A stretch of DNA of 64,000 nt from Rhipicephalus microplus (taxonomy: Eukaryota > Arthropoda > Arachnida > Ixodida > Ixodidae). The stretch spans positions 2,679,501-2,743,500 of the forward strand of contig NW_027464588.1 in assembly GCF_043290135.1 (NCBI RefSeq), given 5' to 3'. Below the pieces are notes generated by a model. That model did not search any database and was not told where the DNA came from. It saw nothing but the letters and a program-made list of their open reading frames with translations. Every line of letters starts with the position of its first letter. The first letter of the stretch is position 1. Below are positions 2,276 to 40,529 of the stretch, piece by piece. The position numbers and the translations under genes are program-made.

Positions 2276-2298
2276 CATAGAGAAATAAAAAAAAAAGG
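2276..2298 (+). mobile_element. 23-bp micro-insertion with 7-bp target duplication
   Basis: The insert reads CATAGAGAAATAAA, then an A-run, then GG. It is flanked exactly by gtagcac at 2269-2275 and 2299-2305. The same core with its own different flanking duplication occurs at 36856 and 40506. Confidence 0.55.
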
Positions 2299-2595
2299 GT
2301 AGCACGCCATCTTTATGTGCTCGTTTGCCGGTGCGACTTGGAAAGCTGTTGCCTTCTGGTGGCGTTTTTATAAAACATCACAGTAGCGCCAATTTTTGAA
2401 CTCAGTTTTATGGTGAAGCGTTCGCTAGAACAGTCTCACTTTGCTCGTATGTTTTTTCCACATATGTGGACGCTGGGATACGAAGGGTTACGAGAGAGTT
2501 GCATGTGACATTATTCTAGTTGGCATGTGTACTTTGTGTGTTCTGTTGTGTGGCATGACTAAGGAGTACTTTGGTTTGGGCTAGCTGCTTCATAT

Positions 2596-2697
2596 CATTT
2601 TCAAAGGGAAGCACAAAGACAAAGGAAAAAAAATGACAGCGCTCTTTGTCTCCGAGTCTTTTTTTTTTTCCTGTGTCTGCGCTGCCCTTTCAAAATG
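2596..2697. repeat. Imperfect inverted repeat (small foldback element)
   Basis: The left arm starts CATTTTCAAAGGGAAGC and the right arm ends GCTGCCCTTTCAAAATG. The arms pair imperfectly over about 35 bp, including A-rich and T-rich tracts. It looks like a small foldback or MITE-type repeat. No clear target duplication was found. Confidence 0.5.
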
Positions 2698-2829
2698 AGT
2701 CAACGAATGAAAGCTGAGAAAAATAAAACACGCAAGCAGAACGCAAGCTTCTTGTTGCTTTTATTTTTGTTTTCAATGGCCGCCAGATGCTATACACTAA
2801 TCGGCCCTCTTCTCGCTTCCGCCTCGGTG

Positions 2830-3050
2830 CTAGGGTGCTTCGCTGCTGACGCGAATGCCACGGGTTCGATTCAGGTGGTGGTGGTCGCATCTAGATGGAG
2901 GCTAAAAGGTAGGTGCCAGCGTACTGCGCGATGTTAGTGCACGTTAAAGGGCACCAGATCGCCGCAATTCCCGGAGATCTCCACTACGGCATTCCTCGTA
3001 ATCATGGCGTTTTTTCACGTAAAACCACATATACTACCACTACTACTACA
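2830..3050 (+). repeat. Divergent tRNA-headed tick SINE
   Basis: A B-box-like gggttcgattc is followed by a body with gtactgcgcgatgttagtgc, acgttaaagg and a tract matching the ccggagatctccactacgg segment of the other SINEs. It is clearly related to the copies at 4477, 6341 and 21951 but much diverged. The closest relative in the window is the copy at 21136. Ends are approximate. Confidence 0.7.
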
Positions 3051-4476
3051 GCTACTATATGCTATGACTACTACGCCCCTATTTTGCTCGCGTTCGTCTT
3101 CTCGTCATTCCTGCATCGTGTCTTTGCCAACTCTGACAACGCTTAGCCTGTGTTTGGTGCCTCGTCTCCGATCGCAGTTTCAGCGGAGCGACGTCGTGTG
3201 TCGCGGTCACGATACATGATCCATGCCAGCCTCTCCTAAAGTACGCGCACTGACTGATCCATTCCACAGAAGCGGGCAATGCACAACAGAGAACGCTGAA
3301 ACGACACAACATCGATGGCGTATGCGCGCACGTAGGCTAGGGCACGTACGTCATGCGAGCGTGACCTTGCTAACGCACGATCTTCTTGGTGCGTATGCAT
3401 CATGCGATCCTCCAGCTCCGACACCGAAGAGAGCAGGGAAGGAATTAGACTCGAGATGGCTACGTGGGGCGATCGGACGGGATCCAAGCTTGCCTTTTCG
3501 CATCATGGTTTTGTGGCTCGTAGGAAACCAATGTGAAAAATCGCCGTGGTAGAACCCTTTTCATTGGTCACGCAAGAACTTCTAGTGTCTAACTACAACT
3601 TCTTATGTCAGCTAAAGAGGGGTGTTTAAAGAAGTAAATTACAAACAAAACAAAAGCCGTGTGCACATCACATTTTTTACCCGAAGGTGCTGCAGCGGGT
3701 GGGTTACAATGCAAAAAAAAAACACACATTCATAGATACAGCACGCTTCTTCTCTTCACAAGCCATTTCATTCAGCCATGAATGCAACAAAAACCGAAAT
3801 AATATAAATATTAGATCTGATGCATACTAAAATCTCAAAACAATTACCATTGCGCGAAGAGGACTGTTTAGGTTCATTCATTTTAGAACGCGAGTTTTAC
3901 CGTTAAACCCTTGGCATAGAAGCTTTAACCGCAGTTTCATTCGATGCAATGATAAATTTCCATACTAGTTCAGTTTTAATATTGGTGCAGCTGTCATTTT
4001 TTGAAGAATGGCTTAGGGCAAACCTTGCAGCCCTCTTCTGTATTTCTTAATATTTTTCACCTACAGATATATACCAAAGAATCTCGTACGGCACAAGCGT
4101 ATTCAGGCATAGGGTGAATGTATACTAAATACATTCACCCTATAATTTTAAACATGCCGGCACCTTCCTCGGACTCCTGCGACCGTCCCTATCTTCTCCT
4201 TACTTCCGTCGTTCGCTGTCACTGCGCCTCGTTCTTTCCTTCCTCTCTCTCTCTATCTCTTTACCTTTTAAGCCTATCCTTTTAATCCCTCCTTTACCCC
4301 CATTCCTCGTGAGCTACTTTGAGGTGTCCTCCCCCTGAGAGACAGTTACGAGGCTCACTTTTATCTTCTTTTCATTTAGGGTCACTTCCCCCATGCCGGC
4401 ACCCATCTCAGGCTGTATAGTACATATAACGATTTGGCGGCCTTCACCACCACTGAATCAATATGAGCATTCCATG
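3051..4476. other. Intergenic, no gene recognised
   Basis: Open frames here are short and overlap on both strands without recognisable motifs. The stretch holds a 15-bp perfect hairpin (listed separately), a pyrimidine-rich tract around 4200-4330 with a short CT repeat, and A-rich tracts. Confidence 0.5.
4109..4143. repeat. Perfect 15-bp-arm hairpin
   Basis: ATAGGGTGAATGTAT, a 5-nt loop actaa, and the exact reverse complement. No flanking direct repeat was seen. It could be a foldback insertion remnant like those near 37.4 kb. Confidence 0.6.
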
Positions 4477-4720
4477 ATTGACAGATGGCTTATTTGTGGG
4501 GTTTAACGTCCCAAAACCACCATGTGACTATGAGAGACGCCGTAGTGGAGGGCTCCGGAAATTTCGACCACCTGGAGTTCAACGTGCACCCAAATCTGAG
4601 CACATGGGCCTACAACATTTTTGCCTCCATCGGAAATGCAGCCGTCGCAGCCGGGATTCGATCCCGCAACCTGCGGGTCAGCAGCCGAGTACCTTAGCCA
4701 CTAGACCACCGTGGCGGGGC
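4477..4720 (-). repeat. Ruka-type tRNA-derived SINE
   Basis: Read on the minus strand, the element begins with a tRNA-like head (A-box region ggtggtctagtggctaagg, B box near gaatcccggc) and ends near ccccacaaataagcc. It is flanked by an exact 12-bp duplication, gagcattccatg, at 4465-4476 and 4721-4732. The short open frames across it are SINE sequence, not genes. Confidence 0.92.
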
Positions 4721-4935
4721 GAGCATTCCATGTGTGGCCCTCCATGGTTTTTCATTCGTTCTCCCTCTACCCGTGGCTGCACAGAAAAACCTGCTGTTTC
4801 TTTCTTACCGCAACACCTAGGTTTTTTAGGGCGGTTCTTCCGTTCCTTCAGGACACTGGACAACTGACTGTGGAAGACGGTCGCCACGTCCTCGCCCATA
4901 GACGCTGCTCTTATTTCATATCACATCTTCCACTC

Positions 4936-5183
4936 CGATTGATATGTGGTGTTTAACTTCCCGAAACCTCCAGATGATGATGAGAGTCGCCGTAGGGGAG
5001 GGCTCCGGAAATTTCGACCACCTGGGGTTCTTTAACGTGCGCCCAAATCTGAGCACACGGGCCTACAACATTTCCGCCTCCATCGGAAATGCAGCCGTCG
5101 CAGCCGAGATTCGATCCCGCAACCTGCGGGTCAGCAGCCGAGTACCTTAGCCACTAGACCACCGCGGCGGGCCCCCCCCCCCC
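4936..5183 (-). repeat. Ruka-type tRNA-derived SINE
   Basis: Same family and orientation as the copy at 4477. It is flanked by catcttccactc at 4924-4935 and 5184-5195. A homopolymer run of C lies at the tRNA-head end (5171-5184), which is unusual compared with the other copies. Confidence 0.92.
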
Positions 5184-6340
5184 CATCTTCCACTCGTTAA
5201 CCTCCTTCCCCTGCGGACGCTGAGATATATGCTTCCACTTAGGGCAGCAGAAACAGCGTCTTTTGCATTCCTCATGCTCCTCCTCCAATCGCTTGGAGCA
5301 TGTCAGCTCTGTGGCGTAAGGTGGCCAGCGAGTGCCATTTCACTGCGGTTAGCGTTTTTTTTATTTTTTTGCAGAAGTTGTTAGAAATAGAGGATGTTGT
5401 TGAACCTCATAGTGGTTGAAAATACCAATGTTGTCTTTTTTACATAAATAACGGTTTTATATTGAGCTCGAAAACAAAATTTGGGCATAAATAGCGCTCA
5501 TACAGGTGCTAATTAGGAAAATAAGCATTTATAGGTACTTATAGGCATTTAGGCTACAACACCCGAAATATGCATTTATAGGCACTATAAAAACATCATA
5601 AAAGTTCTTATTATAACCTCTAATTCATGCACGCATATCAAAATGGCACGGTAGGAACGCAAGGAACAAAACTGGGATTTGCCTATAATCCGGTCTCTAT
5701 AAATTAAAGTAACATCACACTTTGCCCTGTTTTGTTTCTTTTGAAGGCTTCCATACACTTTAACTTCAATCCTATTTCTTCTTTTCCGATGATACTGACT
5801 GATGTGAAAACAGGGGCGCAGAGCCTTTGCAGCGCAGAGGGAAGTTCCACCATGTAGTGCCTGTAGAAAGTAGACTGCCATGCTCGCACAGCAAGCCATT
5901 GAAGCCTGCCTCGACCCTTTTGACCGCTGTAGACACGTCCGCACGTCAAGGTAATTTCTTACGTACCACTGCGCAGCAAAAGCTCTGGCTGCGCCCCCAA
6001 TTTCAAATCAGTCAGTGTCATTGGCAAAAGAAGAAATAAGATCAAAGTGAGCCTTGTGAAACCTTCGAAATAAAATAACAGAAACAAGGTAAAGCGTGGC
6101 GTTTTTTTTTGTTTTTTTCTGGCGAGAGCCAAACGCAAAAACTAGAGCTAGGCTAAATTTTACAGAAGTGTAAATCGCGTCTGAGTAACTTTAGCTTCTA
6201 AAACAGTTGGAATCGAAATGGGCCGTCGCCGACTATTACACAGACTCAAAAAGAGATTTTGTAGTAGGAAATGAGCTGAACATTGCAACTGCTTCAAACT
6301 GAGCCTCATTCATTAAATCGGCACGTCGTCAACAATTGCG
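5184..6340. other. Intergenic, no gene recognised
   Basis: I see only short overlapping open frames and A/T-rich tracts, with no recognisable coding motif or repeat boundary. Confidence 0.5.
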
Positions 6341-6580
6341 GCCCCGCCAAGGTGGTCTAGTGGCTAAGGTACTCGGCTGCTGACCCGCAGGTCGCGGGAC
6401 TGAATCCCGGCTGCGACGGCTGCATTTTCAATGAAGGCAGAAATGTTGTAGGCCCGTGTACTCAGATTTGGGTGCACGTTAAAGAACCCCAGGTGGTCGA
6501 AATTCCCGGAGCCCTCCACTACGGCGTCTCTCATAATCATATGGTGGTTTTGGGACGTTAAACCCCGCAAATCAATCAAA
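6341..6580 (+). repeat. Ruka-type tRNA-derived SINE
   Basis: The tRNA head gccccgccaaggtggtctag is followed by the shared body. It is flanked by tcaacaattgcg (6329-6340) and tcaacaatagcg (6581-6592), a 12-bp duplication with one mismatch. Confidence 0.92.
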
Positions 6581-9500
6581 TCAACAATAGCGACCAAAAC
6601 TATCAACGAGGTCTCATCCAATTTTTTTATTTGTGTACTAGTTGCTTTGCTATCGTGCTTACGTTTCACAATTAGTTTTATAAGGTGAGTTACCACTTAC
6701 TCAAAAACATGATGTTCTAAGACGAAACTCGAATATGAAAAGTCAGAAGCCGACTTTCGCACTTTTCTTTTTGCCTCTGAAGTGATTTTTGTTTTTGTTT
6801 TTCCGAGTATAAAGTGCTGTAGTGTCATGACCTCCGCTTGCTCCAACACGGTATACTTGAAATAAAATACTGCCATGGGGTCATGACGTAAACAAAGACC
6901 GCAGACTCGATGCTAAAATGAAACTTTATCCGGCTAGAGTCGCGGCCAGGAAGCTGAAGCTCAGATTACAGCAATACGCGGGCACTGAGAGCGGCGAACA
7001 GAGCGTCGGCTGTCGATCAACTGAGAATCGCTGAAGCATGGCAGGATTTATCCATGTGTTGTCGAATGTTCCAGCTCTATCACTGGTCTTAGTGCAAGAC
7101 CTGGAATAATCAGCGCCTTGCGGACACTGCTCAAATGGCCCATTTACGCATGCGTGCGCAGCTTGTTCATATGCGTGTGCATGGGGACTTTAATGGTTGA
7201 ATATTTAAAGACAATTCCTGCACTTGTGCTGTCCGGTTCCTTCGTCGTCTTCGTGTTTTTGGTTGGTTTCCTCTTAAGTACAACGTTCTTCTTAACTCAT
7301 CTCAATAATCGTCATGCGTGCGTAGCAACCTCCTCTCATCGGGTGGGGAGGCGGGCACTTCGTCTCAAGTTGGGGCTTGGCAGGGTAGATGTGGCCAAGT
7401 GTCAATTAAGTTATAATCTGTATGCTATGTCAAAAAAATAAATCTTTCGGGGTGCGGTGGGAGCACAGGGCCCGTGTATGAGTATGCCACTGGGCTTTGC
7501 CCTGTTGCAGTGGTCGTAGTAAGGATGGTGATAATGAAGTCAACACGTGCACCAAAGGCTTCAGTTAAAGAAATGTTCTTTTTTTTTTCAAGACCACCGC
7601 TAACTCTTCGGAGTGGTATCCTTACGCAAGATATCGAACGCCACTGGTAACAAGAGCATCAAAGAGGTGCACCACAAAAATGAACCAATAGTTTTTTTAT
7701 ATGAGTCTCTGAAGTGGACATCGGCAGCAACTAATTTATAGCAAGAAATGAAATTTATAAGTGCGTATGAGCTAATACGGTAAGGCAATTATGTATTTAA
7801 GCTGTCTTATCATATAGCGAGCACAAAGAATGAACTGTAAATGCCAGCACTGAATTTCAAAGAATATGTCGGTATTATAACGACAGGGAGTAATTTATGT
7901 AGTTTTAATGCCTAATTGACAATATTGACCTTTTTTCGGGTACGTTGACGCGGCTTCACACACTTGATCTTGATGAACCACTTGAAAAACAGAGCCAGAT
8001 TGCCAGAGCATATTCGCAGGAGTGCAGACACCACCTGACGAATTTCATCTCTGGGACACGCTGACACGCGAGACGAAAATCCATCGTGCAGACTAAAACT
8101 ATAAACAAGCGTTTCGGTGTTCGCCAACAAATTCGCAGTACGGCCCGAAAAAGCTCGATGCAAAGTTACGTGCAGGGAACGAAGTGCAGGGTTGGATATG
8201 CAAAGTTACTGACGCAAGGAGAGGAAAGGTCACAATGGACGAACGTCCTCGATCTGAGGCATGACCAGGTGCAGGAACATTATGTACCAGAGGCCAAGGT
8301 GAAATCCCAAACCTGAAACTATAAAGGCATTGTCTGATCAAAGACAAAAAAGAGAGGAAAGCGGGTACCCACCATGATTATCACTTTCGCAGACATGATC
8401 TGGTCCGAGATTGGTATCGTGTCTAGTGACTAAAACATGCGGTGGCACGACACAAGTGACATAGGGACGGAAGAAAACAATGGCCGGCCCAGATACTGTA
8501 GCCGCAGCACACTGGGCGCGCTGTGGGCCGATAGTAACGTCCATTCTTTAGTGCCGACCTGCGAGTGTAAAACTAACATTCCATATGCCCTTTACTTTCA
8601 CGACATTTCACGCCCGGGCGCGCATCAGCGCGAGTGCACCGTCGTGCAGGAACGACATGAGGACCGGGCCAATATCTTTACCGCAAGCGGAAAAGGCCGC
8701 TTTTTGCTGTTGCCCATCTAGCGCTAGCTAGGCCACAACATCCCAACCAGTCCTGTCCGCTTCCGCCATGACGATGACCCGATGGGGTCATGGCACGTCG
8801 TACCGAATTGAATGCAACAATTGCGCCCATTTGGCCAATCAGGTTTACAACTACCACTTTTGCAGCTAACGAAATTCAATGGCCGTGCCATGGCATAAGT
8901 GTGTGGGGCCCACCTCAAACAGTTGCCGAAGCTATTGAAGCTTCCTCGTTGACGCACGGGGTAGTTCCACGAGCAGATCTTTGTTTATGTTTGACCTACG
9001 GGATTGGGAAGACGCATAACAGATGTCAACGGCATTGAAACGCGTACGTTCACAAGTGGGTCGTTCGCGCATACTGGTCACACCTCTCCAGCATCAAAAT
9101 GGCGGATATGGTACCTGCTGCATTCACTAGATGGCACTTTTAATTTCGCATATTGCCTATAAAACGTACGCAGCAACTCTCAGGGCGTCATACACAAGGC
9201 TTAAAATCACTTACTTAAGAAGGGCTTGAAACAGCTGCCACATCTAGGTGTGGTATGCGGCCTCCTGTGACGATGTTACAGGACAGGTCGCCAATGGCCG
9301 CTCTTTTATACATCGCATTTGCGCTGCCCACGCATGCATCCTTGCGCCTGCAGAAGTTTTTCCTTCGTGCACCGTTATCACGATTCACCGCTGGTTCATC
9401 AAAATCGACAAAGCTGACTCCCGTATGCAGTTCCATCAATAATGGTATATGTCAGTAACTGCTTTTAGTAAAAGGCGCCCATTTCTTTATTCTAGCGTGC

Positions 9501-10621
9501 GCATACAACTACAAATTCAGTGAATTTTAGTGTGCGTTTACAATCGCAACAGTGCAGTGAACGATTGAACGGTGTTAACAGGTGCGTGCGTAGTATTGGA
9601 AGAGCTAGAGGAGGAATGTTCAGAGTGAAATGTGTAGTCGGTAGTTGAGTAGCTTCCTTCGAACCAAGTTTCGACCTTACGACCCTATCGTATTTAGCGA
9701 ATGGGGCCGAACACGCAAGGTTTATCCTGACTAGCTTCTTTTTCTGTTCTCTCGGGATTCATGTACGCCCAAACGGGAAATCTCAAAAGGTATCCTCTCC
9801 AAGCGGAACGTTCTTGCGATGAATGTGTGCTGACACCTCTCACAAAGTGCCGTAAGTAGGTTACACTGAGTAGGTTATAACTTAAAATAAACGATCAAAA
9901 GTCGGAAACGTGTTTTCTATGCCAAAGGGATCCGTGCTAATGCGTCAATTAGTTACATGTTTCTGAGACGTCATGGCGGAGGAGAACTTGCAGCATCGGC
10001 GGTTCTCGGAAAGTGTTCTAAGTCGTAAAAGCCACTATCTGTGAGTGATTAGAGGCTTTTTATGGCTGGACCTTTAGTGAAAAAAATAATTATATCTATA
10101 CACTAATTCCACTGAACACACATCATAAAAATGCGGTAACGACACGGTAAAGGCCTAGAACGGATATTGTGTTGCTGCCTCATTTGAGAGTGCATTTAGG
10201 GGGTGACGCATATTTAGAACATCACGGAGGAGATCAGGCGGCAACTGGGAAGCTTTGGTTGAGAGGCTGCTGTGTTTAGTCTAAAATATATTGAATAAGT
10301 TAAAAAAAGGAAGCAGGGGGCATGTCAAGTGCCCGTGAAAGTGGCGCTGATTTTGTGAAAGTGTCTGAAACCAGAAATCAAGGAGCATTTGCACTACTCG
10401 CCATGTCAATAGATTCATCGAATCCATCCCAAATGTCATATTGTTTTCTTGCGTTACAGTGCTTAGCACAGACGGCGTGTTTAAAGTACAGGAAACATCC
10501 ATAATCTCTAAGGGGTTTGCCTCCTAGCAAACTGCAATTGCACGCCCGTTTTTAATGATACCCAGCCATGAAGTGCAAGAGGAAATTTTATTTAAGCATA
10601 TGAAATGCGAAAAAGAAATCA
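6581..10621. other. Long intergenic stretch, no gene recognised
   Basis: Open frames are short and none shows family motifs. A segment at 7330-7450 (gggtggggaggcggg..., then AATAAA at 7437-7442) could be the 3' end of a retroelement or transcript, but I cannot place it. No further structure was found. Confidence 0.4.
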
Positions 10622-10861
10622 CAGTATATTCACGGAGTGAATGTTGATGAGTGGGGCGAAGCGTCCATGCGTCCGTTTGTCCGCCCGGGCATCCATCTAT
10701 GCGTCCTGCCATCCGTACATCTGCCTGCCTGTCTTTCAGTCTGTCCATCCATCCGTCCGTCTATCTAGTGAACACTCCAAATACTGCCATCTCGCATCTT
10801 TTCATCATATATTCATCAATAATTATATGCAAGTACCGCCATCCAGCGGACATTCTAAGGA
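10622..10861 (-). repeat. Minisatellite-cored dispersed repeat, copy A
   Basis: Read on the minus strand, it shares unique flanks with the copy at 17635-18071: gaatgtcc(g)ctggatgg, then aaagatgcgagatggc, then ttggagtg, then a degenerate GGAC/GGAT tetranucleotide array, then gacgcttcgccccactcat and actccgtgaatat. The array here is about 90 bp, against about 310 bp in copy B. The long open frames on both strands are a by-product of the array. Confidence 0.75.
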
Positions 10862-11079
10862 CTAAGCGGGAAGTTGCAACTACGGCGACACGGGACGTAC
10901 AACCCACGGCGTAAGGAACTTCACCCCTAACAAAAAACATGAACTCAATGGTTTACTTTACATACAGTTCTCATTAAAATAGCTTGAACCTTTTTCTATT
11001 CAAGGTATCATGTGCTGTGTTTCTACCTATCCGGTTTTTGCAGTAGATGGACGTTTTGATGATTATTATTGCATTGTCT

Positions 11080-11617: not shown

Positions 11618-14526
11618 CACTCTTAAAAAAAATGGAGTGACGTACTCTCCATTTAGGGAGGAACGGTGATGTCCCCAATGTTCGTCTTCAAATAGAGAAA
11701 CGTTGCTCCCTCATCCACGGAGAAACACGTTCCTCCTTATGAAAATCAACATGGCTGCCCCCCGGCAAAGCGAGTAGGCTTAGCAAATGCAACGATTCTC
11801 GACTGGTAAGGAGTACACGGCACTGAAAGTTACAAAAAACGGTCCCGCTGAGCTTGATATTGAACGAAATGATTATAAAAACAAGCAGACGAACCTGTGG
11901 CAGTGAACACATCGCGAAAGAGAACGATGGAGCAAGTACGTTTCGTTCGGTCAGCGAAGCCACGTTCACTCCGAAAGACACGGTTTCTGCAGAGCCCTCA
12001 CCTGAAGAGTGCATGCTAGGCTTGATGTATTTATTTCTCGCAGATTCACATAGTGTAGCGACGTTATCCATGCGCTTACGGGTCCGCAGGTCACGAGTTG
12101 TGCCTCCAAGCCGTACACTCGATCGCACCGAAACCATTCCGAATCCGTAGTGCAGCTTTGATAGATAGATGTTCAACGATATATAAATGACTGGAGGTAT
12201 GAGAGCGTCATAGCAATGAAGTAGGTGGTGGCGCCATCTGGAGGAATTGAACAAAATTAAAAAAAGTTGACTGCCGCGACGTTTGTTTGCTGTTACTACC
12301 CACTATCACGGCTCCCTTGCGGATTGTTTACGCATCAACCCATTCAAGACCACTTACGGACACCGAAAGCCTATTATGTGCTGATGCAATCCATATAGCT
12401 ACACATGCACACATGGTCACAGAGTACACAAATAGTACGCAATAAGTACACTTGCGTATACGCTAATAAGTACACAACAACAGCACAATCAACCATCCAA
12501 AACCAATGGCTCACACCTCGACGTGTTTACTCACACTCTACCATGGAAGCGCGCCAGCTTATATAGCGATGAATTTCAACTGACCTGAGTGGCACAGGTA
12601 CAAGTAAGTTTTCTTACACTTTTTTTACGTTTTTTAACAATACCACAACATGCGCACGCGTAAATATATTGTATCTGATGCTTAGGCAAACCTTAGTTAA
12701 GAAATGGTTGCACAATAATGAACGGATTAATTACTAGAGCTTATCAGGTTTTCACGAAGTTGGATGCCCCAAGCCGTGCTTAGAATGCCCACGGCCTTTC
12801 GAACGCTGCGCCATCTGTCGACCACTGCCACAGTTACTTTTTTTTTCTTGAAGCCTCTGAGAGAGCAAACACTTGCTACGCGTTAGCTATTTCGGAGGTC
12901 ACGTTTTTTTTTCTTCTTGTTACTTGGAGAGGGCGCAGCATGCAGACCAAACTTTTTGTTCTGTGGTCACGTCGACCTCGTTTAGTTGTTTCGTCTTAAC
13001 GTTTGCTTATATTCTTTTTACGTGCGTGCCACAAGTGTGACCGTTAGCCATGGATATAATACACCACTAGCCCTTCAATGACAATGTTTTTGATGCGGTA
13101 ACGACCGTCCTAGCAGTGTATACGTACGTTACAACGCGGGTCTTGCGAGATAAATAAGCGATGACCTCGCATCCGACGGTATTTTTTCGTGAGCCATGAC
13201 AGTGGCTGTTGGCACCGCGGCAGCTCTCATACTTGAGTGGAGGAACTATCGCTGCAGTGCGCAAGTTTACTATAACTTTATAGAATGTTGTGCCTGCATA
13301 CTTTTCTGCTTCAGATGCTTCTCGCGATTCGCTTCGCGTGTCAACTTGCAATCATAGTGCGTGGCACAATTTTGTTGTTAGCGCTGTGGCTGTGGTGGTT
13401 ATTACTCTGGATTCGGAATACTCTTTTCACAAAGGTGAGTGAGCGTTAGTACTTACTTGCTGTGCACAGCTGCTACTAGAAGTGCATTTTGTGTTGAGTT
13501 TCTCACGACAAAGGAGAATCATGGACGAGAAAGACGTACTGCTCGCGTGCATAATTCCTTCCTACTTCTCAGTGCTGGCATGGGCAATTCAAAACGAATG
13601 CGATAGAGAATTTGGTTTAACCTACAGAAGTCATTGGTTCACTTTTCACAAAAGTTTAGTTATGGTGATGTTTAAAAAGTTTCTGATGGTTGTAATCTAG
13701 TCTGGCGAATAAACGTTCGGTGAAACTTCGCAGCCTGTTTCCCTTTGTGCTTTCACCTGCCGTGGTAGCATAGCCTTATTGGGGGTCGTGTGACTATGCT
13801 AATGGACGCAGGTTCGACTTCCTGCCACGGCGGCCGTATTCGAACTGCAAAGAACATCCATATGGTGGTAGTGACACGTATAACTCTATCAAATGTATAT
13901 GATCGTACTTTCACGCATGGACTGTAGAGTGGTATCAGGTTTCCTACACTATTGAAAAAATAGGTGGGATGCTTTTTTACGCACCTCGTTGAATTCATGA
14001 GTGCTGTTGGTGCCGTGCGAAACTAAAAATGCGTGGGCTTACCAAGTATGTCGACACCAAAAAAATCATTATTTTTTTACACTCTAAGGTAATCGATAAA
14101 GCAAGACTGCTTGGGAAGCAGAGCTCCTTGTATTCGTGACAAATTGGTAGTATGAAACAACACGAGACACACATGGAAGTGTGCGGAGCATCGTGCGAGT
14201 GCCTGACGATAAAAAAAAAGAGAGGCTTTTACTCTAAACTAATAAAACAAAAGAAAACGTCATTCCTGCCTTGCTTACTACAATCTTAGGTAAAAGCAAT
14301 CGCTCGCGACTGGCCGTGGCCGGCTATAGGCTTGGCGTGCGCATGCGCGCGAGCAAGACCCCCGTGATTGAGGAGAAACTTGAACGCTGAAGGAGGAACG
14401 TTGCTCCTTTGGTCTTTGCCACGAGAGGGCGCGACGGGTAAAGCGCCCGAAAGGGAGGAAGTCGCTGCGCCGAAGGAGGAACGGAGCCCGTTTCTCCATT
14501 CTCGCTCCCTTTTTTTTTTTAGAGTA
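11618..14526. mobile_element. Nested 2.9-kb terminal-inverted-repeat element
   Basis: The ends are cactcttaaaaaaaatgg on the left and, reverse-complemented, tactctaaaaaaaaaaggg on the right. Both are followed by ggag/ggaac-rich subterminal tracts with short inverted segments. The 3-bp sequence gta is duplicated at both junctions and the interrupted LINE frame is restored by joining across it. The CAC-type end and 3-bp duplication are compatible with a CACTA-like element, but the TIR is short and the family is uncertain. No transposase domain was recognised inside, so it is probably non-autonomous. Unidentified short frames (13351-13067 minus, 13519-13700 plus) could be captured sequence. Confidence 0.7.
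13759..13831 (+). repeat. tRNA-like sequence (SINE head?)
   Basis: 73 nt with a perfect 7-bp acceptor stem (gccgtgg/ccacggc), an A-box-like tggtagcatagcc and a B-box-like ggttcgacttc. The T-arm is irregular and the following sequence resembles a SINE body only weakly. It is more likely a tRNA-derived repeat than a working tRNA gene, and lies inside the nested 2.9-kb element. Confidence 0.5.
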
Positions 14527-14529
14527 GTA

Positions 14530-17597: not shown

Positions 17598-17613
17598 TAG
17601 TAGTAGTAGTAGA
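17598..17613 (+). repeat. (GTA)n microsatellite
   Basis: Five tandem gta units just upstream of the minisatellite-cored repeat copy B. Confidence 0.7.
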
Positions 17614-17634
17614 AGGTAGCCACCTCTCGTTTAT

Positions 17635-18071
17635 TCCTTGGAATGTCTACTGGATGGTGGTAGTTCTATATGATTAAAGATGCGAGATGGCGGTACTTGG
17701 AGTGCTCATTAGATGAACAGACGGACGGACGCACGGATGGACAGACAGTCAATCAGACGGACGGGTGTACGGACGCGCGAACGGCCGGACAGACAGACAG
17801 ATGTACGGATGGACGCACGGGCTGACAGACGGGCGCACAGACGGACGCGCGGACAGATGGACGGACGGACGCTTGGATGGCCGGTGCACGGACGGACGGA
17901 TGAACGCAGGGACCGAGGCACGGATAAACACACGAATGTACGTACAGACGAATGGACGCGCGAACGGACGGACGCACGGACGGACAGTCACACTTACGGA
18001 CGGACAGAAGCAAGAACGGACTGACGGACGCTTCGCCCCACTCATCATCACTCACTCCGTGAATATGCTGT
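17635..18071 (+). repeat. Minisatellite-cored dispersed repeat, copy B
   Basis: The left flank ccttggaatgtctactggatgg and aaagatgcgagatggcgg, and the right flank gacgcttcgccccactcat and actccgtgaatat, match copy A at 10622 in inverted orientation. Between them is a degenerate tetranucleotide array (GGAC, GGAT, GCAC variants) at about 17713-18030. Arginine/aspartate-rich and serine/proline-rich frames on both strands are array artefacts, not proteins. Confidence 0.8.
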
Positions 18072-19249: not shown

Positions 19250-19570
19250 GTTGATAATCGCCCGATCTGTTACGCATGCGGATCTCCAGGTCACGTGGCG
19301 CACTTCTGTCACCGGCGCTTCGCAACGGGCCCGGCTGCAGCTTCGAGGTACTCTGACTACTCTTTCCCGGCCCTGTACAACGCGCAACGAGAACTGCCCC
19401 GTCAATACGACCGACAATCAGTGGAACGTGACCCGTCACCAACCGAACTACACCACCACCCTGCTGCCGACTACCGACTATTCAGTCCCCGTCGCTCATC
19501 CTCACCACGCCGCTACCGTTCTCCGTCCGCTGTGCGTCGCCGACCGAACCCCGTAGAGACGGAAAACTGA
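19250..19570 (+). pseudogene. Gag nucleocapsid remnant with CCHC knuckle
   Basis: Encodes CYACGSPGHVAHFC (a C-x2-C-x4-H-x4-C knuckle) followed by an arginine/serine/proline-rich tail (SPRRSSSPRRYRSPS). It is in a different frame from the upstream gag, so it is separated by a frameshift. The tail runs into the duplicated 78-bp segment and stops at 19570. Confidence 0.7.
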
Positions 19571-19738
19571 CTGCCGCAGCTCCGGAGGCACGAGCTGCGA
19601 AATTGTCACCATGTAGAAGTCCTCGCCCGTCCATGTAGAAGTCCCCTCTGCGTCTCCGATCGAACCCCGTAGAGACGGAAAACTGACTGCCGCAGTTCCG
19701 GAGGCACGAGCTGCGAAATTGTCACCATGTAGAAGTCC
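19545..19738 (+). repeat. 78-bp direct duplication (period 116 bp)
   Basis: 19545-19622 and 19661-19738 are identical except for one c/t difference. Both run from cgaaccccgtagagacgg to ccatgtagaagtcc. It is a local tandem duplication within the retrotransposon remnant. Confidence 0.85.
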
Positions 19739-19739
19739 A

Positions 19740-27266: not shown

Positions 27267-27337
27267 TTATGAGCACTGGGTGTACGTTGTCACCATGTTG
27301 CCAACTCTCTGCGTGACAGTCTTGCAGTGGCCTTGCC
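27267..27337 (-). other. DNAJB9: DNAJB9 coding exon 3 (conserved C-terminus)
   Basis: The acceptor tgtgtttag|GGCAAGG gives [20 protein letters not shown] and stop TAA at 27269-27267. A second AG 6 bp downstream would remove two residues and is also in frame. This tail is the best family-specific evidence for DNAJB9 rather than another J protein. Confidence 0.92.
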
Positions 27338-32185: not shown

Positions 32186-35100
32186 GGTACTTGCGGAGTG
32201 AACCTGCAAGAACGTCATCGAGAAAAGCAATGCCATCATTAAAATCCTACTTTTTTGGTTTCCCACCCCTTTATTTACAGCATAATTGTCTAGTTTAACG
32301 TGGCTAACCAACCCAGTGGGCAAATTGTGTGTAGTTGCCACTGTTTAATTCACGCCCAAAACAAAGTGCACAAGCATATCTTTGCTCTACCCCATCAAAA
32401 TAAGGTACGCAAGATCGACGTCTGGCTGAGAACGTCATGCAAAGCAGGGGAGGGGCACTTAACTGTACTCATCCAAGGGGAGCAGAAATTATCTCCAATA
32501 TCTTTCATAGTTGCACTATTCACATCATTTTTATTGTGCAGGGTTATAGCTACACATGTTTTTTTACAGTAATGGTGACTACAAAACCCTTATGTATTCA
32601 AAGAACTGTCTACCTCCCACCTTTGCCTTGTAAAGCCGGGTACCAATGGCATGGCTTTATTAAAAGCACGTCATCGCTTCATTTTCATTCTCGCCCATTG
32701 ACTGCAGCTCCTTTTCTATCAGAGTGGGACTACAAAGGAAAAAGGGAGAGGGTTAACTTGCCCTTTTTCTCGTCCTAAAAGAGAACCTTGCAAACGCCTA
32801 TGCAGATGACAGAAAAAGTAATCAATCTTTTTAACTGCTCCAATCCCAGCGGGGTTCACAAAATATATGGGAGTTGGGAGAACGTTCCTTCATTTTGACT
32901 GCTAGAATACAGAAGTGAGAAAGAAATGTAATAAAAATACATGAACTACTTGAGTGCAACATTATATATCCGTATTTTAAGTAGAACACATTGTGACCCA
33001 AACATTGTATTGGTTGCTTGCCTCAGCTACCATCTGTCGAGTTCCAAGTATAAAATTGAAATCAAAGGACACATGCCACCTAGTTTAACCAGTGATGAAA
33101 TCCTACTCGCAGATTAGTGCCTAAGAATAGAACGATTTTAACCGTACAATGCAGACACTGGGGTAGCAAGGAGATGCTTTTGAGTTCAAACCTACCTCTC
33201 CAATTTTCAAAATTTCGCCCGCAGCTTTGGAACACGTTCTTATAAAGAGTAACGATACCTTGGCCCGTGAAAATACGAAAGCATACTAGTACATTAAAAA
33301 GAAGAAAGATAAGTGTCTTGCGAATACAACTGTTGCTTTGCATGGCGATAAATTCAATTTCTTGAAATATTTTTTCATTTGGCAGCTTTTTTTGTCATCA
33401 TTACTTTTTGTTGTTGTCAATCTTATCGGTCATTTTTTTACCAGAATGTGAGACGATGTGTGCGCGCATGGTTGCTACGGTTATACATTTCCCTCATTTC
33501 CCGAGAACAAAGTCAGTTGTGAGTGACGCCCTTTCTGTTCCGTCCTCAATTTTCTTCCTTGACAGTACGCGTCACTTTGTATTTTAGGAAACATATATAA
33601 AGGTGGTTGAAACCACTCCTCCAATGAAAGAAAATTACTGGAAGCACCTCTGGGTGCGGGCATCTTTTAGGTGAGACTGTAAAATCTGAACATTTTGCAT
33701 ATCCTCAGGTTTGGGGATAAATATTTCTGCTAGAAACAGAGCCCCAGCAGAAAGCTGACTACCATATGTAATGTCGATTATTAAATTATCGTATTTCACA
33801 TCTTTATTTTCTAGTGTCTCTTCTGCACTGGGCTTGTCAACGTTAATAAGCCTAAGACTGGATAGATGCAATGTATTGTTAATGTGCAGCATGGCACTTC
33901 TAATTCACACTGAAGGCACTGCACTCTAATTAATGCATAAAACGATGCATGGATGTACTATGTATAGTTGCTATATCTAACTTACATTGCTTAAAGGCAG
34001 ATTCGCTGCCAACAAACATGAACATTTTTTGAGACATATACGAGACATAATAGAACATTTATTCCTGTGCAGTTGGAAAAACAGTCAATTTTAAAAAAAG
34101 CAATAAAAAATAGATGAACTAAATGGTACATACACAGTACATAGACCATATAATACTGCATCTAGGTGACTGGTACACTAACCATTTATTCACCTTAAAA
34201 TTACTTGTGCTGTGTGAAAACAAAGTTTTCATGGCAAAACGAAACATTTTTTCTTTTCTTAATGTTTAGCTAGCCAGCACGAAGCGTAGAGCCAATGAGC
34301 AGCCGTCCGCACAAGCCGGACGCACTTTCCTATATCAAGGAGGCCTGGTCCACTTTTCTGCGAGATGACCTATTTATAGCTCCCAACAGGTTGTGCCCAC
34401 AAGTGTCCGTGCTGACGCAAGATTTAATGGGTCGGGCCCGGAAGCTCGGTCAAAACAAAGCTTGGTCAGAATTGGACTAATACGTATCTATCTATCAGCT
34501 CTCCATGATCTCCACTATGGTCTGAAAATCTCAATAAAGGTTTTTTTGCCTCAATGTGAAAGTATTTTTCTACATCTTGAAACGATTTTTTGTCCGAGAA
34601 CCAGCAACACATTATAGCATTTCTGGGGGGGGGGGGGATCAATTTAAGTAACCTCAAAAGGGAAAATCTGTACACTAAGCTATCATAAAATTTGAAATAA
34701 AAAAATTGAAATGTGCAATCGCCATTAGAGTCAAAATGATGCGCTAGTAGGAGAAGCTGGCACTGCAAGTAAATACAAAATTCATTCAAGTAGTTTATTA
34801 CGCACTTGCATAGAGAACTAAAAACTGTGCTGCACTCTGGCTGAAACAACAAATCGTGATGGAAAATGAAAAGTAATTTCTTTAGAAGTCATATTGGCAG
34901 CTATTTTTTGTTACAACAAAGCGTAATTTGTTACAACAAAGCTTAATTGTCATTAACATTAAAGATAGCAGCCTCATGTCTAACGTGCTTCAGCTGAATT
35001 ACCACACTCCTTTTGCAACAACATGTACACCGCGCTCACACTAGACATAAGGCAATGAACAGCTCATCCCTTGATAAAGTTTACGACAGGTTTTATTTTG

Positions 35101-36060
35101 AGTATTTTCTGGTACTCTCTTTTTAAACGTTACTGAAAAGCTGTAAAGAAATAGCAAGCCCCCTGCAGAAGAAGTATTAGCCTTTAAAATCACTCTTCGT
35201 GACACAAGCCTCTTCGTTTAAATAGGAAAATATCTAGACATAAGCAGTCGCACTGTAATTTGACTACACGACTAGCGATTTCATTTTCCGTTTAATTTAT
35301 ATAACGGCATACACTGGTTTGTTCAAGCTGGGTTTCATGATTTTCGGAGTAATTAACTCGCACTGCTTACGCCACGTACTACTTGCGAGACCGCGAATAG
35401 GTCACAACTGACGCTACAGGTGAGAAATTTGAAAGTGCGTTTACGACATCAAAGCTCACGGCCACTGGATGCCCGCATTCGCGTTCCCAATGCTAGCTGA
35501 CAAAGAACACGCAAATAAGCCACCGTCCCTGATAAGAAAAGCAACAGTCTTGATCTTGAATTGCCTCATCCTGCGTACATACTCCTGTACGCGGATCAAG
35601 TTACAACACGTACGGCGCCTATGTACTGGCAATGTGTTCCGCTACCCAACAAAAAACGTAAGCAGGAAACATCACAAGGCTGATGTGTTACTGACAGGTC
35701 CGAGCAAGTACACAGCACGGAAGCGGAGCTTTTTTCGGGCAACCCACCAAACGGCGGCTTCAAAAAGAACCACGAAAGCGCCGCGCGCGACAGAGAACAG
35801 TTGAATAAAACGGGATGCGCGCATTCAAACGAAGCGCGAGTCGGTCTCACCTTGACAGTACGATCAAAACAGTCCGGGGACAATCACAGCGACAATCGCT
35901 GAATGCTAAACGTATCAGGTACGCGCAGGTATTCCCGGCACGAACGACTAGGACAGGAATGCCAAACGAGTCGCGGTGTACAGGTGATATCCGCGCTGCT
36001 AAGGAGACCTTCGTAGGTACACGAAGTCTTTTCCCATTGGCCCTACGCTTCGGTCGAGAG
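32186..36060. other. Probable 5' UTR intron and flanking sequence of DNAJB9
   Basis: No coding gene recognised. Short open frames near 33635-33892, 34295-34480 and 34466-34852 lack motifs. A 13-bp G run occurs at 34625-34637. If the DNAJB9 5' UTR exon lies near 36 kb, most of this is intron. Confidence 0.4.
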
Positions 36061-36079
36061 AAAGCGGCGAGGAGAAGGG

Positions 36080-36150
36080 CGAAATATAGGCCGGCGACTC
36101 CTGGCGTAGCAAACCAAAACGCCAGAAATCGCTCGATGGTCCACGTCTCT
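36080..36150 (-). promoter_or_regulatory. Candidate DNAJB9 promoter elements
   Basis: In a locally GC/CpG-rich stretch (35.8-36.4 kb), the minus strand has agacgtgg (36148-36141), one base from the XBP1/ATF6 UPRE core TGACGTGG. About 55 bp downstream is a TATA-like cctatattt (36090-36082). ERdj4 is a classic XBP1 target in mammals. The link to the coding exons about 3.9 kb away is inferred, not shown. Confidence 0.3.
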
Positions 36151-36855
36151 TTAGTCCAGTTGCCGACAACGTCCGAGTGCGACTGGTTGCTACCGGTTGC
36201 TACAGGCGCGCAAATGCTGCGACGCTCGCGTGCGGATCGTTACGACCAAAACTGCCGAAGCTGCGGACTCGGTCACTCGCAGCTGAAAGTTTGGCGCCAC
36301 ATCAACGCTTTTGGCATCAGCTTACCGAGACTTCGGAGCTCTCGTCTCGACAATAAGTTGCCGGACACAGGGAGGAGAATTCACCGAAATACTCGAAAAT
36401 GGCACACGCGCCCACTACATTTGTTTTTCGGTATTTGCCTGGCGATATCTTTGGCGATGACGTTTTCGAACTAGCAAGGATAAGGTTTTTTTTTTTTTTT
36501 TTTTACGGTTGGCATGACAATCTTAACGATGAAGTTATAATTTTGTATAAACGGACTTAGTTTTTTCTGTCGCAGTAAAATGCGGAACAGGCATCTCAAA
36601 TAGTGGGACAGCTGATACCTAGATAGTGATGTGTTCCCTGCCTGAATTTGTAAAAGTACACTGCCTAGAGCAAAAATAATAAAATAATTTCTTGTGGAGC
36701 TCCTTGGTTTGAAGAAGAACATAAACTTTATTTTTCGAATCCAGACGATTCGAGTCCGGCGTTTTTTAGTGGGCCTGGGCACCCACCGCGGATGCGGTTC
36801 CGAGACCTTGTCTCGAAGCGGCTTCCTCGGCACGCTGGACGGCCCAGAGTTGTGC

Positions 36856-36884
36856 CATAGAGAAATAAAAAAAAGGTCTCTATG
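36856..36884. mobile_element. 29-bp hairpin micro-insertion with 7-bp target duplication
   Basis: The insert begins CATAGAGAAATAAA, has an A-run and GG, and ends TCTCTATG, so its ends are 8-bp inverted repeats. It is flanked exactly by gttgtgc (36849-36855 and 36885-36891). It belongs to the same core family as 2276 and 40506. Confidence 0.6.
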
Positions 36885-37358
36885 GTTGTGCTGTCAGGTT
36901 CGAGCTGAACAGTGCGGCCTTCCAACGCGAGCGGAAGCTGCCGGTGGAAGAGTTAGATGAATCGGCACTGTTCGAATTGTTTATTAGGCCCCCGACAACA
37001 CGGTGAAGGGAATAATCAAGGGCATCCCGTTGGAAGAAGACGCCAAGTCCATTAATACCAGCATAGTTCACGCACGTAATGGTTTGAACTTCAAAGCATT
37101 AAGGCCAAACTCCATAAGCGCGAAAATGCACGCGACAGCGACGAGCGACGCTATGAGCGACGAAACAGGGCGGTCGCGCGACGTGTCGCGTACTCATTTT
37201 CGCGCGATCGCTCGGTTCTCCAGATTTGGAAACTGTCGCTCATCGCCCGGAAGTGCTGGGCTCAAGTAGCCAATAGAAAAAAACCGGAAAAGGATATACA
37301 TCAGTGACGTACTGCCGGTTGTTTTCACGGCCAACGGCGATGAGCGCAACGCGTACAA

Positions 37359-37391
37359 CACGGAGGAAGGAAAAAGGTTCCTTCCTCCGTG
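37359..37391. mobile_element. 33-bp perfect palindromic micro-insertion
   Basis: CACGGAGGAAGGAA, loop aaagg, then the exact reverse complement. It is flanked by gcgtacaa at 37351-37358 and 37392-37399 (8-bp duplication). Its arm resembles the CATAGAGAAATAA core of the other micro-insertions. Confidence 0.6.
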
Positions 37392-37400
37392 GCGTACAAT

Positions 37401-37443
37401 CTAGGAGGATATAAAAAAAAATTTTTTTTTTATATCCTCCTAG
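37401..37443. mobile_element. 43-bp palindromic micro-insertion, adjacent
   Basis: CTAGGAGGATAT plus an A-run faces a T-run plus ATATCCTCCTAG, a 21-bp-arm palindrome. It is flanked by cgtacaat at 37393-37400 and 37444-37451. The middle flank is shared with the preceding 33-bp palindrome, giving three copies of the same 8-9 bp target. Confidence 0.6.
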
Positions 37444-37673
37444 CGTACAATGAGCGCCTCATTGATGTAATTGAACGTGGGCGCAACAAAAAATAACGCA
37501 ATGTTTATTACGCATGTGCATATAAAAAAGTGCTGCAAGGCAATAATAAACACTTTCCGTTTTATTACACAACAATATATCTTATTTTTAAATTGGAAAC
37601 CGCTCGCTACGCGGTTTTCTTGGCGCGAGTTGACGGCCTCATGCCAGCAACAGTGGAATTCGCTCGCCGAAGC

Positions 37674-40149
37674 TATGGTGGCTAGAATTGGAAGGTGACG
37701 CCAACGGGAGCTCGGAGCCGCTCCTTCGTTTCGAGCAGCGCGGCGGTGGCGCTGTCGGCGGAATGGCGATGCTAGTTACGCGCGCGCGCCTTGAGCGCGC
37801 GGACCTTTCAAAGATGCTGTTGCTGAAGCATGATTCAGATAAACTGGCGATTCAGATAACTCACTGTGACGATGGCTGATAGAACGCCATTTCAAGCATT
37901 AAAAGAAATTGGCTGCCGCTGCAAGACTTCTGTGACGTTGAATCTGCGCAAATTAAAGCTTTCGTTCGCATATCCCTGCAGTGTTTTGGAGTGCAAGGCG
38001 ACGGCGTTTCTTTAAAAAAAATATTACCAAAGTTCTGGGCGAGGAAAATAAAACAAATATTTATTGCACATCATATTATTAGGAAGATCTATTGCACATC
38101 ATGGAATACAGGGTAAAATAAAATAAAATGAAAAAATACGCACATTTACATACGCTCGGGAGTAGTTAAAAACATTGAAACATTGCACACAGACAGCGCA
38201 TCGCTTGGCACTAAGTAATAAGAGGCATACAATCACTTTCCACTCGGCAAAAAAAAATCAATAGAGCTTAAAGTTACAATATCAAACTCAGAGCAGGCGT
38301 CTAAGCTTCAGCAATTTCATTCTTTCCTGCTTAGCGTTTCGTTTGCTGTTCTGGGCTTTGACATGAAAGTGGAGCCTAGTAAGAACATAAAACTTGATAA
38401 TTTTGTTTGTGAGGGACATACTGTGGTCAGGGCAGCCAACAAGTGTAAGCTTTCTTAACTGCAAGAAGGAAACCAAGTCCATGATGCTGTCAGGTTTGAC
38501 TTCTGTAACACTGAAGCAGTGGGTAAAAGTGTTCTCGAGAGTGGTCACGAGTTCATTGAGCTTGACTGATGGGTACAGCAGGCCTCCTCGGTCAACAGCA
38601 GCCGTGAGGGATGCTGCAGCTGGAGATGGATCGTTCTCGCCTTGTAGGAGCTGCTGGCTGCACTCTGCACATTTGGTGCTTGCAACGCTTTTTCTTGCCA
38701 CATATCCAGCCATGTAGAATATGAGTCTGGCATCGCTGCTTTGCACGACCATGTCTGCATGCTCGGTGCCGTGGCCGTATTCATTGAGCACTTCATGTGC
38801 TTCGGCAAGGTTTCCTACGTCAAGAAGCTCGTCTAATTTCCTCCGAGGAGTGAGGTCCTTTCCGTTGTCAGCTCCCAGCAGACTTCTCAGCAGTCCTGAG
38901 GACACATTGCTTCCTTTCGGTGGTTTTGCCAAATTCTGGAAGCTCAAAGTGTTGACCGAGATTAGGAACTGGGAGGCAGTCGGATGATCATTGCATCCAG
39001 ACATTTGTCGGACGATTCCAAACAGCCTCTCCAGGGGGTCCTGACTCAAGCGGCATGTCATCATATAGCTGAAGTTCAACTTCATCGTCAGGTAGCGGAG
39101 AAGGTGTAGCGTGCTTGATAAGGTAACACGAAGCCCCTCGGCTGTACTGCGGCTTAGGAAACCTCCGGAGCCAGCAGCTGTTTCCCAATCGTCCAGGTAA
39201 GTCAAGAAGTTTTGAATGCACTTCTCGTGCATCCCTCCAGGCTTAAGTGCACCCGAACTGCACCTTGAAGTCATGGCCTCAATGAGCCTTCTCATTCTTT
39301 CCACAAAGCTGACTGTCGCCGCTGTGCTCCCATGCTTTTCTTCGATGGTTGCATTGTACAAGAAAAGGCCTCTGAGGACTTCATCACTGTAAAGCCGCAC
39401 TGCATAATTTACCCTCATTTTCTCAAAGCCATTGGGATGCACAACCGATTTGCTAATATGAGGCATGGCTTTGAGAGTCGTGTCATGCTGTTCATCAAGC
39501 TTCCGGGCACAGTCAATAGGGTCAACACTGGCATGGCCTTCTGGCAGTTTCACGCCCGTTCGAACAAAGGTGTTCCTCACACATTTAAGAAGGTGTGGGA
39601 AGTCCGAGATGAAGTGCAGAAAACGTTCAAGAAGTGCAAAAACGCTCAATAAACTGCTCGTCGAAATGAAGCTCACATAGCGCCGACTTCACGTCCAACG
39701 ACTTGTCGGCACGGGGTACGGCTCGTTGCCAGGCTTCGAAGAGGGCAGGGTCTTTGGGAACAGAGAAAAGAGAAGCACGCTGACCTTGCTCCCTCGATGA
39801 CACATAGCCGCTCGTGCAGCCAGGAGCAAAGCAGTGGCGTTGCCTCGCTTTCGTAGTGCTGGAGTTCATCCTAAGGTCGGCACTCACACTGTCATGTCAG
39901 CAACTAAATACATTTTGCCATAAGCGAGACATCAACGCGGAAAACTGCACACACCCAGACACGCTTCCAGGGGCGAACCAGCGAACCCAGCGGCGAGTCG
40001 ACGAGAGAGCGCGGAGCGCGCGCTTCGCCCGCATCACTATGCCGACAGGAGCGCCGTGGTGGCCGTCGCGGCGGCGCTTGAAAACGAGGATCGCGCGTGC
40101 TCGGCGAATATGCGGGCGCTGGCGTCACCTCCCAATTCTAGCCACCATA
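37674..40149 (-). mobile_element. P-element-like DNA transposon, internally deleted
   Basis: Terminal inverted repeats of about 29 bp start tatggtggctagaattgg at both ends. The 7-bp direct repeat ccgaagc flanks both sides (37667-37673 and 40150-40156), close to the 8-bp duplications of P elements. It encodes a THAP domain and the C-terminal half of a P-type transposase on the minus strand, with the central part missing. It lies inside the long-TIR element. Confidence 0.8.
38288..39869 (-). pseudogene. THAP/P-element transposase, internally deleted
   Basis: From ATG 39869 the first frame encodes a THAP zinc-binding domain (CFAPGC ... FEAWQRAVP ... CELHFDEQF, a C2CH set) and stops at 39627. 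The second frame (to stop 38288, about 455 codons) resumes at LLERFLHFISDFPHLLKCVR and holds the C-terminal transposase part, including SYMMTCRLSQDPLERLFGIV, NDHPTASQFL and FYMAGYVARK. The transposase centre, with most of the RNase H-like fold and GTP-binding insertion, is deleted and the halves are out of frame. Two near-identical 15-mers (gcgtttttgcacttc and cgttttctgcacttc) sit at the junction. In intact elements the protein binds the TIRs and catalyses cut-and-paste transposition. The N-terminal half alone could act as a DNA-binding repressor; that is speculation. Confidence 0.8.
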
Positions 40150-40505
40150 CCGAAGCCGTCGCGTGAATGAGGTTTGCCTGCGCTAGCGACTGATCGCGCG
40201 ACGCCGATCTACGTCGCGTCGCTCGTCGCTGTCGCGTGCATTTTCGCGCTTATGGAGTTTGGGCCTTAAAAGGCAGAGACTGCTCCACCGCGCGGCGCAC
40301 GAGCCAACGGCTGCTGCGCCGCACAGAAGTGACGTCGTGCATTTTTTGGTTAGGCGCTATGTTTGAATAGTCGGTAGTGTCTAGCGGTACGTCTAGACGT
40401 AACGATAAAAGCAGTTAAAATTACATCCAAACGAAAAAGTTAACAAAAATGTTAGTTAGGTTTAGCGTGACAACAATACAAAACCGGATTGTCTGCCATC
40501 TGAAA

Positions 40506-40529
40506 CATAGAGAAATAAAAAAAAAGGTG
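40506..40529 (+). mobile_element. 24-bp micro-insertion with 7-bp target duplication
   Basis: CATAGAGAAATAAA, A-run, GGTG, flanked by tctgaaa (40499-40505 and 40530-40536). It lies 13 bp upstream of the Tx1-type LINE target duplication. Confidence 0.55.

Follow-up and report, generated by a model that had tools for sequence, protein, structure and literature searches.

What leaves the same A-rich core, between 23 and 29 bp of inserted DNA in all, at separate places in a genome, each time between direct repeats of a different sequence? The question is raised by a stretch of 64,000 nucleotides (nt) of the tick Rhipicephalus microplus (contig NW_027464588.1, assembly GCF_043290135.1), referred to here as the window, to which all coordinates are relative. 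At three sites in the window, a core of CATAGAGAAATAAA-A(n)-GG stands between exact 7-bp repeats, with insert lengths of 23, 29 and 24 bp. As judged from sequence, these three short inserts are very probably the excision footprints of a DNA transposon of the P-element superfamily, that is, the remnants left where a copy of the transposon has departed.

Short inserts in the window

The exact 14-mer CATAGAGAAATAAA occurs four times in the window, three times inside the short inserts and once at position 46518. An exact 7-bp repeat across an insert of 18–32 nt is found at 167 of 63,913 window positions. Since this background is only 0.26%, the presence of such a repeat at three of the four copies is far above chance. 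A preliminary description of this DNA had reported the same core at three sites, each with its own 7-bp repeat, and the sequence check bears this out. It had also described a hairpin at 36856, which is better interpreted as the remnant of the opposite terminus of the transposon. The bases that could belong to either terminus at the junction are G at 2276, T at 36856, and TG at 40506.

A search with degenerate tails over the window and 20 kb on either side gave chance-like matches only and no additional copy of CATAGAGAAA, and a pattern search of viral contigs gave no matches. Two CATA...TATG pairs with 7-bp repeats, at 13769–13864 and 52217–55916, have no other terminal similarity by eye and were taken as chance.

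Copies across the genome

Across the assembly, exact CATAGAGAAATAAA has 696 matches compared with 61 for a reversed control pattern, so that background accounts for about one in ten of these places. The first 100 places listed (contig C1 and part of contig C2, taken in order with no random draw) were fetched and classified; loci are denoted by L numbers. An intact left end was defined by the subterminal AAGAGTGGACACTCC with at most four mismatches. The 100 places comprise 67 intact left ends, 16 places with an exact 7-bp repeat 15–74 nt away, and 17 others. Among the 16, there are 14 short inserts resembling terminal inverted repeats (TIRs), or 13 independent ones given the common flanks of L050 and L051, and two that are not TIR-like (L119 and L120, a duplicated pair). 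A 7-bp repeat with one mismatch is present in 5 of the 17 other places and at 2 of the 67 intact ends, the latter presumably by chance. In the control, the adjoining 7-mer is repeated at none of the 100 places.

Two-ended mini-inserts of the form CATAGAGAAATAAA-N(0-30)-CTCTATG number 45 genome-wide, against none in the control. An exact 7-bp target-site duplication (TSD) flanks 40 of them, a TSD with one mismatch flanks the other five, and equal 8-mers flank none. The pairs L050/L051 and L086/L087 each have the same duplication and flanks and probably represent one duplicated locus per pair.

The first 20 places were fetched with 9 kb of sequence and include 15 intact left ends. For ten of these, a right end with an identical 7-bp TSD lies 3.2–6.9 kb away, and the other five have none within reach; L014 and L015 have a common flank and TSD. 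The preliminary description had proposed searching the assembly for the core with its 7-bp duplications and for longer elements with the same ends. The excess of duplications is present, and longer elements have been found both in the window and at these ten places. Its view that constant ends with site-specific 7-bp duplications are the signature of transposition is confirmed, the source being a cut-and-paste DNA transposon.

Tails and junctions

The anatomy of the inserts was examined in a set of 55, formed by the 45 two-ended inserts, eight more from the first 82 places, and two from the window. The strict count of the left tail ends at GGT by design, while the free count accepts any letter as the variable fourth base before requiring AAGAG. 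The whole GGT is included in 41 of the 55 left tails (13 of 22 with a short A-run and 28 of 33 with a long one). Where the A-run is at most five, the 13 tails that include GGT are 17 nt long, or 18 nt if the fourth base is counted. The other nine are 14–16 nt long, and one of them (L071) has an interrupted A-run followed by GGT. Where the A-run is six or longer, the 28 tails that include GGT are 20–24 nt long (25 nt with the fourth base). Two of the other five, L062 and L080, end at 17 nt exactly, the length predicted by a fixed 17-nt ruler. No tail continues into AAGAG except that of L065, which has one letter beyond the fourth base, adjoining filler and possibly due to chance. Right remnants reach 19 nt in 11 inserts and 20 nt in one, in most of which GT or TG could equally belong to the left tail.

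The two tails share 1–2 nt at the junction in 34 of the 55 inserts, are joined bluntly in 6, and are separated by 1–11 nt of filler or mismatch in 15. The junctions form 34 distinct strings, and a given string recurs in up to 5 of the 55 inserts. Most recurrent junctions stand on differing A-run backgrounds, as with GGT+CTTCTTCTTTCTCTATG, which occurs on A3, A6, and A7. Three inserts (L053, L059, and L077) consist of CATAGAGAAATAAAGGT + CTTCTTCTTTCTCTATG and can be read as the complete product of 17+17 nt. A long left tail is combined with a right remnant of 0–2 nt in 7 of the 55 inserts and in 5 of the 14 inserts in the first 100 places.

For Drosophila P, excerpts of two papers (PMC7776569, PMC10983969) describe a transposase that cleaves one strand 17 nt within the element and leaves 3' tails. 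In Table 1 of PMC2895639, P{wa} excision leaves remnants of the tails flanked by the target duplications, with joints that are blunt, use shared bases, or contain insertions. The tick inserts have a structure like the junctions in that table, which fits repair of excision breaks. At the 45 two-tailed sites, both tail remnants lie between the target duplications and are joined by shared bases or filler, as in a P excision footprint.

From these results, we infer excision by the transposase of the family as the origin of the inserts, together with the place of the inner cut and its anchoring at GGT. An element copy would first have integrated at each site, creating a 7-bp target duplication, as the TSDs and the paralogous empty sites of similar inserts suggest. 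A P-type transposase would then cut one strand at the boundary and the other at least 17 nt inside, as indicated by the tail ends and known for Drosophila P, so that each donor end would keep a 3' single-stranded tail of terminus sequence. The host would trim the two tails unequally and rejoin them by end joining. In 40 of the 55 inserts the joint would be blunt or at 1–2 shared bases, and in the other 15 it would include short filler. The expected product is a TSD, the remnant of the left tail, the remnant of the right tail, and the second TSD. Where the right tail was trimmed to 0–2 nt, as at 2276 and 40506, the scar would resemble a solo left end. The 46518–51232 element is a resident relative with an internal deletion.

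There is about an even chance that the two cuts are positioned separately, the boundary cut by the terminal CATAGAG and the inner cut independently by GGT and the subterminal sequence. The A-run between the cuts varies, and the single-stranded tail would therefore range from 17 to about 24 nt. Copies with long A-runs, paired ends, and identical TSDs are present, and long-A-run elements would thus still transpose. The 2 of 33 long-run footprints that end at 17 nt are evidence against an inner-anchored cut.

The resident element and its protein family

The fourth copy of CATAGAGAAATAAA opens a transposon with GGCGGCT before its first base at 46518 and again after its inverted CATAGAGAAAGAAG end at 51232. 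The terminal repeats are imperfect, and both ends carry CATAGAGAAA.. (Table 1). Joining proposed exons 1 and 2, which are open and split by an intron on the minus strand, gives a THAP domain (PF05485, E 4.7e-15). The element was compared with 10 genomic copies in all and is 94.8–97.0% identical to six of them, which are 6,838–6,862 bp long (L014, L015, L016, L024, L025, and L026). Relative to these copies of about 6.85 kb, it has a deletion of about 2.16 kb at 48108/48109 and is therefore without the catalytic exons. The six long copies have paired ends, 7-bp duplications, and matches to THAP, helix-turn-helix, RNase H, and GTP-binding pieces, and their near-uniform lengths suggest a recent spread.

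Table 1. Coordinates, strands and bases of assignment of the features described in the window.
Feature	Position	Strand	Basis
7-bp target duplication GTAGCAC, copy 1 / copy 2	2269..2275 / 2299..2305	+	sequence
Putative excision footprint, left tail CATAGAGAAAT-A10-GG, with no more than one G of the opposite tail	2276..2298	+	
7-bp target duplication GTTGTGC, copy 1 / copy 2	36849..36855 / 36885..36891	+	sequence
Putative two-tailed footprint, CATAGAGAAAT-A8-GG(T) + right tail (T)CTCTATG, 1-nt shared T	36856..36884	+	
7-bp target duplication TCTGAAA, copy 1 / copy 2	40499..40505 / 40530..40536	+	sequence
Putative excision footprint, left tail CATAGAGAAAT-A9-GG(TG), opposite tail at most 2 nt (TG)	40506..40529	+	
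7-bp target duplication of the element, GGCGGCT, copy 1 / copy 2	46511..46517 / 51233..51239	+	sequence
P-superfamily transposon, 4,715 bp, internally deleted	46518..51232	transposase gene on -	ends, TSD, comparison with genomic copies
Left terminal repeat CATAGAGAAATAAAAAAAGGTGAAGAGTGGACACTCC	46518..46554	+	
Proposed exon, coiled-coil-like by eye, no domain match	48102..48233	-	
Proposed exon 2, remainder of THAP domain	49517..49692	-	
Proposed exon 1, first part of THAP DNA-binding domain	49822..49937	-	
Right terminal repeat CATAGAGAAAGAAGAAGACAAGAGCGGACACTCC, imperfect copy of the left one	51199..51232	-	

A protein search with the window element found seven relatives with 84–98% identity over the aligned part, from R. 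microplus, Dermacentor variabilis, and R. sanguineus, and a longer joined query gave 23 matches. The joins of proposed exons 1–4 are consistent with the sequence of one relative (P0001). Six relatives were scanned for domains; Tnp_P_element is present in five, three of which also have the N-terminal RNase H domain. PF05485, PF12017, and PF21787 are present in P0016 and P0023, while P0030 has the GTP-binding and C-terminal RNase H domains (PF21788 and PF21789). The Dermacentor relative P0023 also matches 6p5a, a structure of the transposase of Drosophila P (E 5.7e-18). The P-type domain set is spread over several relatives and pieces, and the family as a whole has a P-superfamily transposase, of which the window copy keeps the THAP domain only. 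The tick transposon is a new family of the known P-element superfamily, and its probable excision footprints are of a known kind.

Several R. microplus proteins that are annotated as "uncharacterized" are almost identical in sequence to parts of transposons in this family. Elsewhere in the window, positions 19525–19738 contain a 116-bp tandem repeat (1.8 copies with 94% matches), and positions 17720–18030 contain a GACG-rich array.

Empty sites

For each of the 55 inserts and 10 full elements, the two flanks were joined and matched against the fetched loci, leaving aside the locus of origin. Ten footprint queries have an uninterrupted paralogous site with a single target copy at 88–100% identity. 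The best is L067 against L011 (5543–5595), with 53 of 53 positions identical across the junction, followed by L082 against window 51244–51296 (98%), L070 against L005 (95%), L105 against L125 (95%), and L086 and L087 against L146 (94%). The others are L023 and L080 against L024 (93.5% and 92%), L089 against L146 (91%), and L090 against L105 (88%). A weaker match, L053 against L011 (78%), has mismatches within the target itself. These matched sites are paralogues in repeated DNA and not alleles. The L067 footprint sits within sequence of the same transposon family, and another copy of the element (L011) has the site uninterrupted.

For the window itself, the site at 36856 has a weak match to L023 (75% over 93 columns, with gaps close to the junction). 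A protein search over its joined flanks returned one candidate and nothing significant, so this empty site is without support from a coding homologue. The sites at 2276 and 40506 have no junction-spanning match in the fetched loci or elsewhere in the window. The preliminary description had suggested looking for empty sites; insert-free paralogues with a single target copy are present for several inserts genome-wide, while for the window sites there is only the weak one.

Target preference and clustering

The 53 distinct duplications favor G or C at positions 1 and 7, a pyrimidine at position 2, and a purine at position 6 (S-Y-N-N-N-R-S), and 24 of them agree at all four positions. The outer three pairs have a complementarity of 0.40, compared with 0.257 expected and a largest value of 0.384 in 2,000 random sets.

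The three footprints and the resident element lie within 45 kb (2276–46518), far above the genome-average density. For the 64 kb of the window, 0.0136 exact copies are expected and four are present (Poisson 1.4e-9, rising to 7e-5 on correction for all 64-kb windows), a probability qualified by the choice of the window for its cluster. The "local hopping" of P has a range of about 50–150 kb, as given in an excerpt of PMC7776569, and the cluster suggests local hopping of this type. Of 75 gaps on contig C1, 3 are shorter than 100 kb against 1.86 expected. As this is no clear excess of short gaps, local hopping is not supported genome-wide.

Comparison with known systems

By its domains, the transposase of Drosophila melanogaster P belongs to the same family as that of the tick element. 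The Drosophila P terminus CATGATGAAATAACATAAGGTGG, known as a guide target (PMC11368186), agrees with the left end of the tick element at 17 of 23 bases. No other ungapped alignment in the window, on either strand, is as good; six other places reach 16, and the tick right end matches at only 12 of 23. Both systems have footprints of tail remnants between target duplications, as far as the Drosophila junctions are described in the part of the literature cited above. They differ in the TSD, which is 8 bp in Drosophila P and 7 bp in the tick element, and in the left tail, which varies with the A-run in the tick, unlike the 17 nt of Drosophila P. Both the termini and the TSD length (7 bp in the window element and at ten of the first 20 places) are consistent with the P superfamily.

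Galileo, a Drosophila member of the superfamily, has mostly 7-bp TSDs with a palindromic preference for GTANTAC (excerpt of PMC4168063), comparable with the S-Y-N-N-N-R-S tendency in the tick. It differs in its very long TIRs, and its solo-TIR copies are not described as excision scars in the excerpt of PMC3573991. Zebrafish Pdre2/THAP9 has a P-type transposase, as in the tick, and the Pdre2 terminus begins with CATA (excerpt of PMC10983969). Pdre2/THAP9 and the P-type miniature inverted-repeat transposable elements (MITEs) of Anopheles resemble the tick family in having internally deleted derivatives but have 8-bp TSDs. The Anopheles P-MITEs, as portrayed in an excerpt of PMC1562414, are longer, keep two TIRs, and are repeated as families, unlike the tick short inserts.

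Alternative explanations

Several points count against or limit the reading as excision footprints. Left tails of 20–24 nt at long A-runs exceed the 17 nt of Drosophila P, and a right tail of at least 18 nt is required in L067, L072, L078, and L080. The search demanded the first 14 nt of the left end, which makes left tails shorter than 14 nt undetectable. The proportion of junctions with shared bases (34 of 55) is not far above the level attainable by chance, for which no control was computed. Inserts with a long left tail and almost no right remnant (0–2 nt) have no equivalent among the Drosophila junctions in the excerpt of PMC2895639, the nearest of which keeps 4 nt. A full element at the target of any footprint has been seen in no allele or sister genome. 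The long tails could be accounted for by a variant of the same origin, in which the tails end where repair synthesis stopped, after copying a few nucleotides from the sister chromatid and ahead of end joining, and not at the position of the cut. Synthesis followed by end joining is common after Drosophila P excision, as stated in a part of PMC2895639, and could lengthen left tails past 17 nt; the two long-A-run tails of exactly 17 nt (L062 and L080) also agree with a fixed ruler. However, repair synthesis is expected to give variable endpoints, yet most left tails include all of GGT and none clearly enters AAGAG. In addition, none of the 53 intact left ends in the first 82 places has a 7-bp repeat in the downstream sequence examined (median about 136 nt). 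This variant is rather unlikely.

The inserts had initially been proposed to be mobile minimal derivatives of a transposon. As ultra-short non-autonomous elements, or micro-MITEs, they would move as units of 20–40 bp, mobilized in trans by a P-like transposase, and the two-tailed class does have both termini and exact 7-bp TSDs, with some junctions recurring. However, a MITE has two complete TIRs and forms a family of near-identical units, while the inserts have 34 distinct junction strings, truncated tails that do not reach the subterminal sequence, and a one-tailed class without a second terminus. Most recurrent junctions stand on different A-runs and so probably arose repeatedly, the exception being GCTTCTTC.., which occurs twice and on A3 only. 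Deleted copies of Drosophila P also need to keep no less than 138 and 216 bp at their ends (excerpt of PMC1562414). We regard such mobile units as very improbable. A non-standard insertion process, the other early suggestion, finds no support either, as the shared nucleotides and filler fit the repair of excision breaks. The constant end, variable other end, and homopolymer run give the inserts a superficial likeness to extremely 5'-truncated retroposons on the reverse strand, with a constant 3' end ...ATTTCTCTATG and target duplications. This reading was rejected on account of TSDs fixed at 7 bp and intact copies with paired ends, identical TSDs, and THAP/P transposase pieces, the second end also being a defined terminus; it is extremely unlikely. 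Chance A-rich sequences with coincident 7-bp repeats would have in their favor the A-richness of the 14-mer, the repeat background of the window, and the 61 reversed matches. The genome-wide counts (696 against 61, and 45 against 0) and the lack of repeated flanks in the control refute this explanation, to which we give practically no credence.

Implications

A literature search found, among the matches listed and with subscription journals not covered, no P-superfamily family in ticks and no catalog of natural P footprints. P excision scars were previously known from laboratory flies. If the inserts are excision footprints, one tick genome holds dozens of natural fossil scars in which the TSD, the likely cut site, and the style of repair can be read without experiment. 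If the inner cut is in addition placed by GGT, the genome would hold a natural substrate series showing that the "17-nt" stagger of P transposases is no ruler from the end. An inner cut anchored inside the element would bear on how P/THAP9 transposases position their unusually long stagger. More generally, short "insertions with TSDs" in genome comparisons may be departures and not arrivals. Because short inserts flanked by TSDs can be departures, the polarity of insertions needs to be called with care.

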